Shown one piece after another: positions 1-12,961 of a stretch of 37,898 nucleotides of DNA. The DNA comes from Mycoplasmataceae bacterium (lineage in GTDB: Bacteria; Bacillota_I; Bacilli_A; Mycoplasmatales; Mycoplasmoidaceae). Positions within the stretch are counted from its first letter, which is position 1. Every line of letters starts with the position of its first letter. Under the pieces are notes generated by a model. It ran no database searches. It was not told the DNA's origin and saw only the letters and a program-made list of their open reading frames with translations. Made by a program: the position numbers and the translations under genes. The DNA is taken from contig JAISKD010000010.1 of assembly GCA_031261065.1 (NCBI GenBank), positions 1 through 37,898 on the forward strand, given 5' to 3'.

Positions 1-6
1 TTTCAT
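1..6 (-). CDS. Predicted 5' end of a leftward gene (only ATG and one codon visible)
   Basis: Only two codons (ATG AAA on the minus strand) lie inside the window. The start is inferred from a TATAAT box at 14-19 on the minus strand followed by 7 bases and then ATG at 6-4, the spacing seen before most genes here. The product cannot be known from this window. Low confidence because it rests on promoter geometry alone. Confidence 0.3.
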
Positions 7-13
7 CACATTT

Positions 14-19
14 ATTATA
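14..19 (-). promoter_or_regulatory. -10 box of a leftward gene
   Basis: TATAAT on the minus strand, 7 bases before a minus-strand ATG at 6-4. A perfect dyad at 19-40 abuts it on the upstream side, where a repressor or activator would sit. I see no convincing -35 hexamer. Confidence 0.45.
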
Positions 20-40
20 AGACCGTTTAATTCCGGTCTT
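19..40. promoter_or_regulatory. Perfect 7-bp dyad next to the leftward -10 box
   Basis: AAGACCG (19-25) and CGGTCTT (34-40) are perfect inverted arms around an 8-base spacer. No good T-run follows on either strand, which argues against an intrinsic terminator. Its place directly upstream of a -10 box fits an operator. The GC-rich arms stand out in very AT-rich DNA. A bidirectional terminator remains possible. Confidence 0.5.
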
Positions 41-111
41 TCTTCACATCTAATAATTTGGCATCAAACTATTCTAATCATATACAAATATTATTTAAAT
101 AAATAAAAAAT

Positions 112-155
112 ATTTGTCCCAGATTTGTCTCTTGTTTGTCTACTATTTGTTTGAT
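112..155 (+). repeat. Four 11-bp direct repeats, consensus ATTTGTC-N4
   Basis: TTTGTC or TTTGTT begins at 113, 124, 135 and 146, exactly 11 bp apart. Three of the four have A before TTTGT and the third has G. The array points toward the cyclase-like gene. A shorter array with the same unit, period and orientation to its gene lies upstream of recA (5046-5073, minus strand). Spacing of about one helical turn places all copies on one face of the DNA, as expected for cooperative binding of a regulator. Confidence 0.7.
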
Positions 156-191
156 ATTAGAAATATTACAAAAAATAAGTAATTAAGTTTA

Positions 192-259
192 AAATAATCA
201 CCAAAACAAGACAATTTTATCTATCTCAAAATGATTATTTATTTTAAATAAAATGTCTT
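192..259. repeat. Interleaved inverted repeats upstream of the cyclase-like gene
   Basis: AAATAATCA (192-200) is complementary to TGATTATTT (232-240). AAGACAATTTTAT (208-220) is complementary, with one bulged base, to ATAAAATGTCTT (248-259). The order A-B-A'-B' would form a pseudoknot or two mutually exclusive helices if transcribed. The predicted start of transcription is near 319, so as RNA this needs an upstream promoter. The rest of 41-312 is AT-rich with no supported gene. Confidence 0.35.
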
Positions 260-306
260 TTATTTTATATATGAGTTAATATGTATATTAATAAACACAA
301 AACCTT

Positions 307-312
307 TATAAT
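307..312 (+). promoter_or_regulatory. -10 box of the cyclase-like gene
   Basis: TATAAT directly abuts ATG 313 and lies 6 bases before ATG 319. With usual initiation 6-7 bases downstream, the transcript would start at ATG 319, so ATG 313 would be absent from the message. No -35 match is visible. Confidence 0.6.
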
Positions 313-318
313 ATGACT

Positions 319-1143
319 ATGGAAACGAAAAGATTAGCAAAAGATTACAATGGTTTTTACTTATTTTTATCTCTTGATTTAGTAAACTCAACACTATATA
401 AAACAAAGGACCCGGACTGGTCAGAACTTTTCATCAAGATCTATGGAGATACTGTTGAAATAGTTAAACAACTAATACCAACTATCACATTATGAAAAAC
501 TCTTGGAGATGAGCTTTTGTTTTATATTAAAATAGATTCACAAAAACAATTAGTTGATGTATTCAACAAAATATATTTAATTGCCCAAAAAGGAAATAAA
601 TATCTTACTAAACTTTCACCACCAAACATCAAAACTAAATTAGCATACAAAACAACAGTTTGATCTGGCATGGTTAATTCAACCCTTGGTAAAGATAGAA
701 GTAAATGAAAATACTTAAACTTAATACTTCCTGGTCTTGTATCAAAAGATACATTAGATTTTATTGGACCGGATATTGATACTGGTTTTAGAATTGCAAA
801 AGCCGCCTTTAGAAACATAGTTGTTGTTGATGCTAAATTAGCTTCAATCCTAAATAAAATAATGCCTCAATTTAATTCAAAAGCAAGAATTGTTTATTTC
901 GAACAATTTAAGGGTGTTTGAGATAATAGACATTATCCAATTGTTTGATATTCAGATGATTGACAGAAATTACCAAACACATTTAATTATGAAGATAAAT
1001 TTAATTCAAGAATTGTTATGTGAATAGAATCAGAAAACATTAGCAAATTTAGAAACGTTAGTGATCTTGAAAGAATATTTAAAGAACTAGGAAAAGCTAC
1101 AGAAGTTTTAGCAATTCAAAAACAACTTAAAATTACTAAATAA
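319..1143 (+). CDS. Class III nucleotide cyclase-like protein (predicted adenylate cyclase)
   Basis: 274 residues, TGA read as Trp. Three motifs of the class III adenylate/guanylate cyclase catalytic domain occur in order. SLDLVNST holds Asp20, the first metal ligand. WKTLGDELLF holds Lys60 and Asp64, the second metal ligand, 44 residues on. DFIGPDIDTGFRIAK (147-161) matches the family's D/C-x-x-G-x-x-V-N-x-x-x-R region: Asp147 sits where adenylate cyclases carry the adenine-selecting Asp, and Arg158 is the transition-state Arg. The usual Asn is Asp154. No membrane segment or sensory domain is visible; about 110 residues follow the core. Predicted reaction, by family: ATP to cAMP plus pyrophosphate, probably cytosolic. 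The protein could instead be an inactive homologue. ATG 313 is an alternative start; ATG 319 fits the -10 spacing. argG follows after 21 bases with its own -10 box. Confidence 0.65.
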
Positions 1144-2517: not shown

Positions 2518-2576
2518 GTAATTTTATTTAATAGTTGATAAAATGCACGAGGATATCACACTCAACTTATTCACTA

Positions 2577-2582
2577 TATAAT
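2577..2582 (+). promoter_or_regulatory. -10 box of the BspA-like lipoprotein gene
   Basis: TATAAT 6 bases before GTG 2589. An ATG at 2587 is out of frame, so the spacing supports a leaderless GTG start. The spacer 2518-2576 holds a weak AGTTGA/TCAACT dyad (2533-2538 and 2562-2567) and no clear terminator. Confidence 0.6.
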
Positions 2583-2588
2583 AAATAT

Positions 2589-4004
2589 GTGAAAAGATTT
2601 AAAAAAATAAAATCTCTACTCGGAACAACCATTGCTGCATTAACAGCGGGTGGTGTTGCAATGGTTACTACAAGTTGTGACCCAGTTGATTTATCTGAAT
2701 TAAGTGATGCTGTAAATTTTGACATTGTTGGTTACGAAGGAACTGACGAAATTTCAATGCGATATATCGACGATTCTGTTGTTGGTCAACAGAAGATCAA
2801 GATTGTAGCTTATGTTTCTTCTAAAATAATAGGAGATTTTAAATTTTGAGAGTTAGGCGATCTTGGTGGTGCAGAGTGACAATATATTTTCCACAAAGAA
2901 CCAGATAAGGTTGATAGAGTTGCAAAAACAGTTACAACTTACTTAACTTTTAGCAGCACAGCCGGTGAAAGAAACTTTGGTGGTAAAGATTTTCCAAAGT
3001 TTAACTATGGTGGTTATGCCAAGGGTACTTCGTATTTTGTAGGAAAACAAATATCATTAAAATCTCACTTCGTTGGTTCAGTATTAAGCTTTGATAGTTT
3101 CGAGACAAAGAACGAAGATATCATAGGTATGAAATCAAATTTAGATGATATACAGAAGAAGGCAAGTACTTTACAACTTTACTACGGTTTCAAAGGAATA
3201 GCTGATGATGCATTCAATTCTAACTCAGTAGCAACCGTTTCACTTCCACCATCTGTTAAGCAAATTATTCCTGATAGCGGTTACATGGAATATTCTATGA
3301 CACGTATTGGCGCAAGAGCTTTCAAAGGATGCTCTGCATTAGTTGATGTTGAAATGCCAACAACTGTTAGCCAAATCGGAGACGAAGCTTTCTATGGATG
3401 TGATGGTATTTCTGAAATTAAAATCCCTATCATTCAACACATTGGTGAGAATGCCTTCGGTGGAATAAGTTCTTTATACAACCCTAACAACCCAAATGAT
3501 TTAAGTTCTGTAACATTAGATACCGAAGCCGAGAACACACCAGATTATACTTGATACACTGAAAGTGATGTTACTGGGGATATCGGAAAAGTTTTACATT
3601 ACAGGCCTACAAGTTTGAAAACCGGCGACCCTCTACCAGCATCTACTAAAAATGTGGGAGGATTAGCAATTGGTAAAATTAGGATCGGTGGCGAAAACGG
3701 ATATAATGGTAACGAAACTGCAATCACTTCTCTTGATGACTACAGTTTCGCTGAATGTGCTTCGCTTTACTCAGTTGATTTCCACGAAACAGTTCTCGCT
3801 ATAGGACAACACGCCTTTGAGAATTGTACATTATTAGAAAATGTTACCCTGCGTTCGCCAACATTAGTGCCTTACTCAACAGGTATGTTAGCTAATTGCG
3901 GACAATTATCAACAATTCATGTTCCTGAGGAACTTATTGAAAGTTACCAAGCAGATCCGGAGTGACAAGCTTCTGGATACACTGGTTTTTTCGAAGCTGT
4001 TTAA
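2589..4004 (+). CDS. BspA-like leucine-rich-repeat surface lipoprotein
   Basis: 471 residues from GTG 2589. The N-terminus is a lipoprotein signal peptide: a Lys/Arg-rich start, a hydrophobic core and Cys30 within VTTSC. The second half (from about residue 220) carries LRR_5 / Treponema-BspA-type repeats, recognisable as IGARAFKGCSALVDVEMP, IGDEAFYGCDGISEIKIP, IGENAFGG and IGQHAFENCTLLENVTL. Such proteins are membrane-anchored, face outward and often bind host proteins; that role is inferred from family. The stop codon lies in a TTAA shared with the recA stop on the other strand (4-bp convergent overlap). A longer TTG-start reading from 2535 would put 18 extra residues before the signal peptide and is not favoured. 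Confidence 0.88.
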
Positions 4005-7650: not shown

Positions 7651-10600
7651 ATGTTTAGCGGTAGTAAGTTCTTTAACTTCTTTAAGTCTAAAAAAACACA
7701 TCATAAAGCAACTCCGAAGAAGAAAGCTTCTTCTGCAACTTTTCTTTGTGCAACACTAGGCGCGTGTCTTGCTGGTTGTGGTACAGCGGCTGTTTCTGGC
7801 TGGTATGTTGCCAAGAATTACACTGTTTCAAACGAATATAAAGACGGTTGAAACATGAGAATTGAATTGGACACTCGTTCTGATAATCCATTCTACACAG
7901 CAGACGCTGGAGATAATCACTATAATTCCGACCAACTTTATGAGCGTGCAAAAGCTACTGCAGATACATATTCTGATTATCTAATTTCAAAAGGAATAAG
8001 CACATTTGAAGTACTTCCTGAAATTGATGGTGATGGTTCTGCAACTTCTCCATACACAGCATATTTAAACTGTTCAGTTCCAAATACAATGGTTTACAAA
8101 TATGATGATACAAAGCATGAAGAAGCTAAAATCCCATTATATCAAGACTTGTTGTACTCATCATATTTGATGAACACTCGTTTAACATTCGTTTTCAACT
8201 CAGATGCAAATATGTATGATGATGCCGATGACACGACTGTACAAACAAGATTTTCTACAACTAGTACTACTCCAGGAATTGGAATTATGAACAATGACTC
8301 TGCATTTCCAATCTACAGCAGTTCACACGACGTTTCATTGAGTAGTGACCACAAAAAAGCTAATATTAACTTAGCGCAAGGATGAACACACTTTTTTGAT
8401 GATAAAGATGAAGGCGGAATATTTGGTAAAGCAGCATCAGGAAAAGATGACTATAAGGGTGTTGGTTCACCACAAATGTATATCATTCGTGATATGAATT
8501 CCCTTATCTCTCGTATGCAATTCATATTGCAGTCTTACCTGTTTACGAAGGCTAACTTAGATTTTTCAAACTTTAATTTGGGTGATGTTACCGATGCAAA
8601 CTCTGATGCTTACAAAGCTGCAAACTCATTTAATTATTTGACAACAGATGAACAAGATTGAGCTAAGAGCGTTTATGCCGATATCTCTGATCAAAACTTA
8701 GGAAGTTCTCAATGATTAAACCCAATTCAAAACGCAACCAGCAGTCCTATCGGTACCGATGATAGTTCCTTTTGTAACTTTCCAGAAGCAAATGGTTGTT
8801 TCTCCGATGGACCTTATTATGATTTAAGCAATATCGTTGGCACAGATTCATCTGATAGTTATGAATGGAATAATGCCATTTATCCAAGTTCAGGTCTTAA
8901 ATCTTTAAACGTTTGTAATGCAGATGAGGTTGCTACAGGAGACGGAGCTATTGCAGATGATCCATCTAATTTTTTCTGAGCATTCATTAACGGTTCACAT
9001 AGTGCTGATCATGCCGGTGCAGCAAGTTCAAATGTATTTAATGAGTTGTTATACAACGCTTCTGGTGGAAGTACATTCACAGTTCCAACATGAATGAAAC
9101 CTTATGTACTTGGTGTTGTAGATTCTACAAACTATAGAAACTATTTTCCCGCTAAGCTACCTAATGGTAAAAAGAATGATAAGTCTAAATTCATGAACAT
9201 TCCTTTTGATAGTGAATTCGAAAGCAAACAAGTTGTTTCTCAATTACAAAACATTAACAACCTACCATTCAAAGCATTGGACTCAATGGTTAAGATAGGT
9301 AGTAGTGATGTACCAAGCACAGCTGCTCATGGTTCAACTCCAATAATCCCAATGGCATTCAATAAACAACAGGATAACAATGGTTATTGCTCTAATACTA
9401 CAGATGCTGCTGGTGGTAACAAGATCATGAATGTTGACCAACAAAAATTCTCAAAACCATTATTCTTTGGTTTTAACCCATTATTAGGTTCTATTATTGC
9501 AATCGGAGCAATAATCCTATTAATAGGCATCATTGTTTCAATATTATATAGGATACCAGGCCTTGTCGCCTTCTCTTGATTATTAGCTCTTTTTGGATTA
9601 TCATTCCTAATTCTAATTCTTTCTGGATATGCAATTTCCTTCGGAATGTTATGTGGTTTATTTGTTGGACTTGTTATTTCATTCATCAGTATACTCGGTA
9701 TATGTGAAAGAATTAAGAAGGCATCAGTTATAGGCAAGTCCGTCAATTATGGTGTTAAAAAGGGAATAATTAAAGGTATCTTATCTACATTAGACTTACA
9801 CTTCATTGGTATTATTTGTGCAATTTCTTTCACTTATTTTGGATGATTAGACCTTCAACCATTTGGTATTGCATTATTATTAACTACGTTACTTTCCGTT
9901 CTATTTATAGGAATAATCTGAGTGTTCACTTTATTGCTAGCATTCTCTAAGAGATGATCATCAGAAAAGTTCAAATTGTGCTTCTTTAGAAATAAAGCTG
10001 AAAAGGCTGAAAGCGCTATTGGTGAAATTAATTTGGAAGTAGAAAGAAAATTTGAAACTAACTTCTCTTCATGTAAACTTAAACACTTTAGTGTATTTGC
10101 TCCATCATCTTGATATGCACTTAAGGGATGATTATCGATCGCAATTGCACTATGTATCATTATCGCTGGTGTATTTGTGATTACATTCGTTGGAATACAT
10201 GGAAGCTACATATTCTATGGTGGAACCAGAATAGCTTCAAGCACTGCTTTAGACAATAGTACATTAAACTATTTCACTAACACTCTAGGTTTAGGCAGTT
10301 ATAAATTAGTCAACCAAGATGGTCTCTTCTATTATTACTTCAGTAAATCTTTAGATATGGGACAAATAAGTGGTGCTAATACGATCTATCCAGACCTTAA
10401 TATACAACTTTATTCAGGTGGAGGAATAAGTTCATATGTATGAGCAACATTCTGAATGATTTTAATTGCATCAGCTTTCGTTGCTGTATATTCTTTCATT
10501 AGATTACATATTATTACATTCATTCCAGTTCTTATTTCTGTTGCCATAGTTCCATTGCTGTTATTAGCATTAGTTTCTATATTCCAAATTTCATTTGATG

Positions 10601-11049
10601 AAAATGTGTGTGTGCTTGTTGCATTAGTCTTTGCTATTAACTCAATAATGGTAATCAATATCACTGGTAACATCCACAATAAGTGAGTTAAGACACAAGC
10701 TTTCCCTATAAAAGACCTTAAGAAGGTTATTAATACAGAAATTAAAAACTCTCTATTATATCTAATCTATATTTACGGCTTCTTAGTTGCTTCTGGTTTA
10801 ATACTAGTATTCCTTTCATCTTCATCATTAACATGACTATATGTATCAATGATCATTGGTGTAGTTGTTTCAGCGGCTGTTGTAATGTATGTGTTGCCAT
10901 TGATTCTCGTTTACTTCATCAGCATACGTTATGCATACTTACGTTCAGTAAGCCGTAACAGTGAAAACACTAAGTTCTCTTATGATACTGTAGATGAACA
11001 AAGTCTATCAGGAATCAACAAATTTAAACGAACTTCTGTAACTTTATAA
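7651..11049 (+). CDS. secDF: Fused protein-export membrane protein SecDF (divergent mycoplasma type)
   Basis: 1132 residues, many TGA-Trp. SecDF uses the proton-motive force to help preproteins through SecYEG. An N-terminal Lys-rich stretch is followed by a hydrophobic segment (about 28-53). A large, poorly conserved external domain runs to about residue 605. A SecD-like helix bundle then begins with GSIIAIGAIILLIGIIVSI and RIPGLVAFSW and contains ICERIKKASVIGKS, the counterpart of the family's IFERIREE-GKS. A second external domain (about 840-930) precedes a SecF-like helix block starting RLHIITFIPVLISV, with the INSIMVINITGNI region where SecF has its conserved NDT motif. LAGC at 40-43 inside the first hydrophobic segment looks like a lipobox. 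The assignment rests on topology and these weak motifs. Confidence 0.8.
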
Positions 11050-11089: not shown

Positions 11090-12961
11090 ATGGAATGTAC
11101 AGAACAACTTAATCCAAACGAATGTGGCGTATGCGCCATCTGTTCGCTTGTTAGACATTATTACCACACATGTGATAAAGCAAAGCTTTTAGATGAAGCT
11201 AATATTTCTCCACAGGGTTTATCAATATTTGAATTTGAAGTCTTGGCATTATCGCACGGGATATTTGTTGAAACTTACAGTTTGGAGTGAAATGAGTTTT
11301 ATAACTTCCAATCTAATAAGTACCTTGTATGTTTAACCAAAGGTCAAACCGGTATGCACTACGTGGTGATCAGAAAAAGACAAAACCAGATTGAGGTTTG
11401 GGATTCGGCCAAAGGATATCAAGTCAAAACATATAAAGAGTTTGCAAAGGTTTTTGGAAATGTGATGATGATCGTTACAAAGAAGAAAACTAACTTGCCT
11501 CCAATTCTTAATAAGAAAACAAAGATTCTCAAGTCTATAAATGTTAAATATTTATTACTTTCTGTTCTTTTAAATGTACTTGCTATTTCTCTAAGTATTG
11601 CTGGTGCTAAATATTTAACCATGGTGATCGATAACTCGATAACCTCGGAATCGTTTTCTAATTTTATTAGTATTTCAATTCTGTTTGGCTTTCTGTATAT
11701 TATGGAAGGTTTAACGAATTACGTATTACATATATACTCTACGATGTTTGTTAAAACAAATTTCTGTTACCTATCACATAGATTTTTACAAAAGATTAGA
11801 TATAAGAATAAAATTTTTTACAGTAAGGTTGATAAAAACCAAATCATGTTAATGGACAATGCGATGACGGCTATCGCGCAACACTACGCAGTAGATATAA
11901 CAGCTTTTGTCACAAATATCTTTTTATGTTTTGCGTGTATCATCATAATCTGTTCATTAAACTTATGATTTTTAATCATTGTTGCTGCTAGCTTTATTTT
12001 TTCAAGCATCAGCGGTTATTTTTATTACACGTACAATAGCAAGCTCTTGAGTAAAATCATTCACAACGAATCAACAAATAACATGGTTAATCGTAAATTC
12101 ATTGATTGTCTAGGCGAGAGTGACAACGCCATAGAAAAAGAAGAAAGTATTAATAAATTAATGAGCAACTATTTTGAATATCAGAATCTATATTGTAAAA
12201 AGCAAAATTTCTCTGCTTGTGTTTCATTGATCTCACATGTTTATGAGAAAATAGCATTCATTATATGCGTAATGATATGTACCTACTCTATAATTACTAA
12301 GTCTACTATAGATATAGGAGATATGCTTTTTATTATCGCGCTTACGGGTATAGTTAATTCCAGTATCGATGGCATGAGCCAGTACATTCTTAAGTGAATT
12401 AACTTTAAGAAAATGAGAGAGATTTATTTGAACTTCGTAGAAGTGGGTAATGTTGATTGTATTGGTAATAAAGTTTTACAGAATATAACCAAAGTCGAAA
12501 TCATACACAACACAAAACCTATTCTACTCAGCGGTAATATAAATAGCGTTGTTAAAAAATATGATGTGGATAAGATATTAACAACGCCCAATGATAAAGA
12601 CTCTGCACTAAAGATAAATGACTTACCTATAAATGAGTACCTAACTTATAAGTATATCGATAAACTTATAGTATTAAAACCTACTTGTAAGTTAGATACC
12701 ACCAATATAAAAGATGGTATATTAACTAATAATCAGTTACTAACTAATTGCATACGCGCATTCAAATTCGACATTACCGAACCGGTCACATTCGACCAGC
12801 AGTTAATCGTCAATTTGTTAGCACTAACACAGGTACGCGATTATGTTATCTACTTAAAAGACTATCTTAAACATATATCAACTAAATATAGAAAGTATAT
12901 AAACCAAAATATATTACAAGAAATATCCCAGCACAATGTTCTAATGTACAGCGATGTTTAA
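11090..12961 (+). CDS. C39-peptidase ABC exporter with a degenerate nucleotide-binding domain
   Basis: 623 residues. The N-terminal domain (1-130) looks like a C39 peptidase, which cleaves double-glycine leaders. Gln6 lies six residues before Cys12 in NECGVC, with His90 in MHYVVI and Asp105 in VWDSAKG, so the catalytic residues appear intact. Residues about 150-430 form an ABC exporter membrane domain of five or six helices. The last 180 residues align loosely with an ABC ATPase but lack its motifs: GNINSVVK (482-489) stands where Walker A belongs, TFDQQ (567-571) where the signature belongs, and YVIYLKD (585-591) where Walker B ends. It resembles the peptidase-domain ABC transporters annotated in mycoplasmas, by recall. 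No substrate peptide or second ATPase gene is adjacent. Confidence 0.75.

Follow-up and report, generated by a model that had tools for sequence, protein, structure and literature searches.

Mycoplasmas commonly serve as the model for minimal regulation. No cAMP system described for them was found in our literature search. The locus examined here raises the question of whether one of their genera encodes a class III nucleotide cyclase and, if so, what such an enzyme would make and how it came to be there. The window, i.e., the whole stretch of 37,898 nucleotides analysed, covers positions 1 to 37,898 of contig JAISKD010000010.1 from a Mycoplasmataceae bacterium (GCA_031261065.1). A sequence-only reading had predicted an adenylate cyclase close to its start. 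An intact cyclase kept in reduced mycoplasma genomes would be an unexpected signal source.

A cyclase-like gene read in the mycoplasma code

As the window starts where its contig starts, 312 bases are visible upstream of the gene. The following features were assigned:

1..312, no strand: AT-rich upstream stretch at the contig end, lacking any remnant of the M78 peptidase gene found ahead of the cyclase gene in relatives
313..1143, plus strand: class III cyclase-like coding sequence, translation code 4, 276 aa from the ATG at 313 or 274 aa from the ATG at 319, with seven in-frame TGA codons read as Trp
349..960, plus strand: predicted catalytic domain (residues ~11-214), which superposes on solved class III cyclases
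955..1140, plus strand: predicted C-terminal helical tail (residues ~213-274), outside the cyclase fold and partly common to the Aminicenantes and Leptospira relatives

Under code 4, positions 319-1143 form an open frame, and the ATG at 313 lies in the same frame and adds two residues. In the 274-residue numbering used below, Asp20, Lys60, Asp64, Asp147, Asp154 and Arg158 all stand where the earlier reading had placed them. Five of the seven TGA codons (W59, W115, W201, W210 and W215) correspond to Trp encoded by TGG in standard-code homologues from outside the mollicutes, and this TGA-coded Trp indicates that the gene is at home under the mycoplasma code. The four mycoplasma orthologues share 47-59% pairwise identity, and their differences by codon position follow the order 3 > 1 > 2 (about 0.5, 0.36 and 0.25). 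This order and the TGA codons at conserved Trp positions fit a translated gene under purifying selection.

That the gene is contamination or a binning artefact and not mycoplasma DNA was considered, given the draft state of the genome and the position of the gene at the end of a contig. Against this stand the seven TGA-coded Trp residues, a GC content of 27.5% compared with 32% for the window, and the genes alongside: argG, recA and those for aspartyl-, histidyl- and valyl-tRNA synthetase are read in the same code with in-frame TGA on the same contig, whose nearest named relatives are Mycoplasmataceae MAGs. Three further orthologues lie between core genes (among them rpoB, rpsO and thiI) in other genomes of the genus. 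We therefore rejected contamination as exceedingly improbable. The mycoplasma gene is confirmed as real and intact, beyond chance, because TGA codons occur at conserved Trp positions, six residues are invariant (see below) and the predicted structure is that of a class III cyclase.

Three other genes of the window were recorded in passing. Between argG and recA, positions 2535-4004 encode a protein of 489 aa, possibly a surface protein, whose leucine-rich repeats are of the BspA type (Pfam LRR_5, E 1.3e-30). An open frame of 1132 aa without a Pfam family (7651-11049) is followed by a gene for a protein with a C39 peptidase domain (11090-12961; E 4e-19), perhaps a bacteriocin-type exporter.

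Predicted fold of the protein

The single 274-aa sequence was uninformative in profile searches. It had no match, even a weak one, to the Pfam or NCBIfam cyclase models; in particular, the search against Pfam Guanylate_cyc (PF00211) that the sequence-only reading had suggested as a check returned nothing, so that the cut-off was not reached. The PADLOC models likewise gave no match, and phmmer against the PDB sequences returned chance matches only. Sub-threshold, partial Guanylate_cyc matches in three genomes (G000, G047 and G048) were set aside, as they lie at other places than the cyclase gene.

Pooling relatives gave a faint sequence signal. When PDB sequences were compared with a profile of 12 relatives, Rv1900c was the best but a weak match (E 0.13), and CyaC followed with E 1.5. 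By hhalign, alignment with six Pfam Guanylate_cyc domains from the relatives' genomes was collinear (E 1e-3 local and 5e-5 global; with a low probability of 22-40%), and paired D20, K60, D64, D154 and R158 with the metal Asp, the Lys, the second metal Asp, the Asn and the Arg, respectively.

A single-chain AlphaFold2 model, built from an alignment of 20 relatives, reached a pLDDT of 88 and a pTM of 0.87. Foldseek with this model placed CyaC and other bacterial and eukaryotic cyclases on top (E 4e-9 to 1e-7). VIA-align Z scores, for residues 8-217, were 15.2 for CyaB, 15.2 for mammalian C2 and 14.9 for Rv1900c. Superposition on solved class III adenylyl and guanylyl cyclases gave an rmsd of about 3 A over about 180 residues. 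These results support a class III nucleotide cyclase fold for the modelled protein, as the sequence-only reading had proposed, and the different fold that would have spoken against it did not appear in the prediction.

Conservation of the active site

The predicted catalytic residues map to the following codons:

376..378, plus strand: Asp20, predicted metal ligand 1 (motif FLSLD20LVNST); invariant; hhalign pairs it with the metal Asp in six Guanylate_cyc domains
496..498, plus strand: Lys60, predicted base-selecting Lys (motif W-K-T-L-G-D64-E); invariant except for Arg in phage phiCD27
508..510, plus strand: Asp64, predicted metal ligand 2; invariant, and aligned to the metal Asp
757..759, plus strand: Asp147, predicted second base-selecting residue; invariant except for Glu in phiCD27, and matched by spacing
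778..780, plus strand: Asp154, at the usual place of the transition-state Asn; Asp throughout the family
790..792, plus strand: Arg158, predicted transition-state Arg; invariant

In class III cyclases, the base-selecting Asp or Thr stands seven residues before the Asn. The spacing D147-x6-D154-x3-R158 equals the class III arrangement D-x6-N-x3-R, and Asp147 was assigned from its place seven residues before D154, near which hhalign opens a two-residue gap.

Across 20 diverse members, the invariant positions were F16, S18, D20, S24, T25, K28, W34, W59, K60, G63, D64, E65, K111, D147, G150, P151, D154, G156, F157, R158, K198, G199 and P207. All five catalytic residues that the earlier reading had listed as kept (Asp20, Asp64, Lys60, Asp147 and Arg158) are thus among them, and the loss of the two aspartates from most orthologues, which would have told against it, was not observed. 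In the wider set, phage phiCD27 departs at the base-reading pair, with Arg for K60 and Glu for D147. The metal Asp pair and the Arg are kept across phages, plasmids, spirochaetes, Alphaproteobacteria, Actinobacteria and mycoplasmas, and the Lys and the base-selecting Asp nearly so.

The one departure noted at the outset, Asp154 in place of Asn, recurs in every family member; we therefore regard it as a family trait and not as decay in the mycoplasma. Rv1900c, a known cyclase, has His in place of the transition-state Asn (PMC4886424), so that Asp154 alone does not exclude activity.

Distribution and descent

The gene was present in 4 of the 95 genomes of the GTDB family. All four belong to one genus of 36 genomes, most of which are drafts with completeness of 51-94%. 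In samples of 395 genomes at class level and 392 at phylum level, the source genome itself was the sole match. The four mycoplasma copies occupy unrelated sites (neighbours named by eye except argG): before argG in the window, between rpsO and a guanylate-kinase-like gene (L005), ahead of a thiI-like gene (L006), and beside rpoB (L038).

Against PHROGs, the window protein matched two groups of unknown function, phrog_18024 (E 6e-40) and phrog_6174 (E 4e-16). Relatives on mobile elements were found on Leptospira plasmids, phage LE1, the Clostridioides phages phiCD27 and phiC2, a Mycolicibacterium plasmid and actinobacterial-looking viral contigs; others were found in Aminicenantes and Fibrobacter and on chromosomes of Caulobacterales and Sphingomonadales. 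Further viral scans added mostly copies of phiCD27-type prophages.

In the tree, the mycoplasma copies formed one clade (100/100) inside a 98/95 clade with the Aminicenantes, Leptospira plasmid, L032 and phiCD27 members. A long stem (1.5) leads to the mycoplasma clade, and for this reason the tree does not resolve the donor. The patchy distribution points to horizontal gain, and the mycoplasma gene was probably acquired from this mobile-element family.

A CapP-like peptidase gene beside the cyclase gene in relatives

In ten non-mycoplasma lineages, a gene for a peptidase of the M78 (ImmA/IrrE) family lies directly upstream of the cyclase gene in the same orientation, overlapping it or separated from it by no more than about 25 bp:

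M78 and cyclase gene pairs: L007:7376-8861; L018:280-1677; L020:84-1799; L021:4321-6404; L022:4440-5921 (the lineage also including L027-L031); L023:4450-6014; L024:4505-5945; and around the cyclase gene in L033, L034 and L036

The pairs occur in phages, plasmids and bacterial chromosomes, and their cyclase-like gene is annotated only as hypothetical. The HMM used to find the upstream M78 genes was built from five of these proteins, and the other five lineages, the records' own annotation and Pfam Peptidase_M78 add to the support. In PADLOC, the best match of these peptidases was capP (E 3e-32 to 2e-23). The peptidase CapP is switched on by ssDNA, cleaves the repressor CapH and governs immune operons (PMC13373217). 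Our limited open-licence literature search found no described pairing of an M78 peptidase with a class III cyclase, an absence that is weak evidence.

The association does not extend to the whole family. With the same HMM, no M78 gene was found directly upstream in L032, in twelve alphaproteobacterial loci or in the mycoplasmas. M78 was absent from the source genome, from the 312 upstream bases of the window, in which the longest open frames do not exceed 34 codons, and from the three loci of the mycoplasma orthologues.

Taken together, the pairing suggests that in the relatives the cyclase and the CapP-like peptidase likely act in one switch, either by direct contact or by way of a diffusible nucleotide. 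A more specific proposal, compatible with our preferred reading, is a defence or lysogeny switch in which the cyclase or its product would control a CapP-like peptidase that cuts a repressor, the mycoplasma gene being a remnant. The tight adjacency in ten lineages and the capP matches (E up to 3e-32) argue for it, as do the repressor genes near the pair in phages LE1 and phiCD27 and the precedent of CapH and CapP, which control immune operons after ssDNA binding (PMC13373217). On the other hand, inspection of the Aminicenantes and Fibrobacter loci by eye revealed no repressor gene beside the pair, the alphaproteobacterial members lack M78 and lie beside a SpoIIE-type phosphatase instead, and the source mycoplasma genome has no M78. 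We consider this proposal plausible but lean somewhat against it.

Several neighbouring arrangements were noted separately. The alphaproteobacterial members (L008-L017, L019 and L025) have a stable setting, with an MFS/TLC-like carrier that contains HEAT repeats and a phosphatase of the HAMP-SpoIIE (PP2C) type; the carrier was considered as a cNMP-binding protein and rejected, since only MFS/TLC and HEAT parts were found in it. In phiCD27, ORF37 (L021:4818-6404) carries a C-terminal Nudix-like part after the cyclase-like domain (PADLOC PDC-S07, residues 373-439, E 1.4e-5). L032:1270-2319 also combines a cyclase-like domain with a Nudix-like part, inside which the frame ends. In G051, a cyclase-bearing mycoplasma genome, an HTH-M78 protein is followed by a short PIN-like protein (L045:1095-2602). 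This unit looks like a toxin-antitoxin type unrelated to the cyclase, and its M78 was rejected as an operon partner.

Catalysis, product and receptor

The residue pattern suggests that the window protein is likely catalytically active. A complete catalytic residue set usually decays after loss of catalysis. In this family both metal aspartates and the Arg are invariant and the Lys/Asp pair nearly so across distant lineages, which argues against the alternative that the cyclase fold has been repurposed as a nucleotide- or metal-binding sensor or scaffold that does not cyclise and acts by protein contacts, in the relatives with the M78 peptidase. This alternative would account for the family-wide replacement of Asn by Asp, and the tight gene pairing with the M78 peptidase suggests a physical partner. 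The want of a receptor also speaks for it: PF00027 (cNMP_binding) matched none of the 36 genomes of the genus, including the source genome, compared with 11 of 14 control genomes. With draft genomes, any one absence is soft, but an absence from all 36 is not. However, the known cyclase Rv1900c lacks the Asn too, having His (PMC4886424), and we judge a non-cyclising protein unlikely.

The same search bears out, for the cNMP_binding domain, the earlier statement that no cAMP receptor is known in these organisms. Since the genus has no cNMP-binding domain and the source genome no M78, the product would be without a recognised reader.

The choice of base is less settled. The earlier designation as an adenylate cyclase held in so far as the Lys/Asp adenine pair is kept, and was weakened by the family-wide Asp in place of Asn and by Ser18, which replaces the pocket Phe. 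Ser18 lies two residues before the first metal Asp, a position that is mostly Phe in the ordinary cyclases compared; in PycC it is Tyr or Phe (Y50, F100, F60) and helps base choice (PMC11224242). Mainly because of this Ser18, we keep the base choice open. Production of cGMP, cUMP or cCMP, by a guanylate cyclase or by a pyrimidine cyclase resembling those of Pycsar, would suit a pocket so different from that of ordinary adenylate cyclases at a position relevant in PycC (PMC11224242), as well as a family whose relatives live on mobile elements. Yet Lys60 and Asp147 form the adenine pair, guanylate cyclases usually having Glu instead of Lys (PMC4886424), and the PycC residues, namely the aromatic two before the first Asp and the sets around the second, are absent (PMC11224242). 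Neither a PADLOC match for the protein nor a cNMP-gated effector in the genus was found. A base other than adenine thus appears improbable, and cAMP as the product is what we infer from the sequence.

As the best explanation, we favour with fair confidence a horizontally acquired class III-type homodimeric cyclase, most likely making cAMP, whose M78 partner was not kept. The protein would be a soluble single-domain enzyme of class III fold, two identical chains of which would form a head-to-tail dimer. Two Mg or Mn ions would sit at Asp20 and Asp64 of one chain, the base would be recognised by Lys60 and Asp147 of the other, and Arg158, aided by Asp154 at the Asn position, would stabilise the transition state as an NTP, most likely ATP, is converted to the 3',5'-cyclic monophosphate. 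In this family, carried on phages, plasmids and scattered bacteria, the cyclase gene usually forms a two-gene operon behind that of the CapP-like M78 metallopeptidase, and a mycoplasma ancestor within one genus would have acquired the cyclase gene and kept it without the peptidase. In this scheme the computations show the gene, the predicted fold, the conserved residues, the distribution and the gene pair of the relatives, and we infer the dimer, the activity, the product, the horizontal gain and the loss of the M78 partner. More broadly put, the protein is probably a variant class III nucleotide cyclase, gained horizontally, for which a purine NTP is the probable substrate.

Although its cyclase active site is nearly complete, the family carries no annotation beyond 'hypothetical protein' or 'unknown function'. 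That phages and plasmids conserve its link to a CapP-like protease offers a testable idea joining nucleotide signals and repressor cleavage. Our boldest suggestion, which we put forward as speculative and rather doubtful, is that phages, plasmids and scattered bacteria carry an undescribed M78-cyclase signalling unit, of which one Mycoplasmataceae genus keeps a working cyclase alone, the first in Mollicutes, with an unrecognised kind of receptor.

Comparison with known systems

The closest known counterpart by structure is the class III cyclase domain (PF00211: CyaC, Rv1900c, CyaB and mammalian C2), with which the window protein has in common the predicted fold, the two metal Asp, the Lys/Asp pair, the Arg and the spacing. 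Rv1900c also has Asp-x-x-x-Ser-Thr after the first metal Asp, as in the window protein. The window family differs from these cyclases in its Asp for Asn, the absence of a Pfam match and an identity of about 12-16%; the window protein has in addition a variable insert at residues ~116-145, its own C-terminal tail and no sensor domain.

DUF2652 cyclase-like proteins resemble the window protein in being short, cytosolic, single-domain, predicted from residues and without the Asn (PMC4886424). They differ in having Lys-Glu or Glu-Lys pairs and Ile or His at the Asn place (PMC4886424), and the Pfam DUF2652 model did not match the window protein. The Pycsar PycC proteins, like the window family, are small class III cyclases linked to phage conflict, whereas their base-reading residues differ from those of the window protein and the genus lacks a cNMP-gated effector (PF00027, 36 genomes). 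PycC was not among the best 50 structure matches listed, which is no evidence against kinship.

The CapH and CapP system is approached through the M78 peptidase of the relatives, for which capP is the best match. In contrast to that system, the peptidase has a cyclase as its partner here, a repressor like CapH is not seen beside it in every case, and the source mycoplasma genome has no M78. Finally, phrog_18024 and phrog_6174 belong to the same sequence family as the window protein; phrog_6174, unlike it, adds a C-terminal Nudix-like part, and the phage members of both groups sit behind an M78 peptidase.
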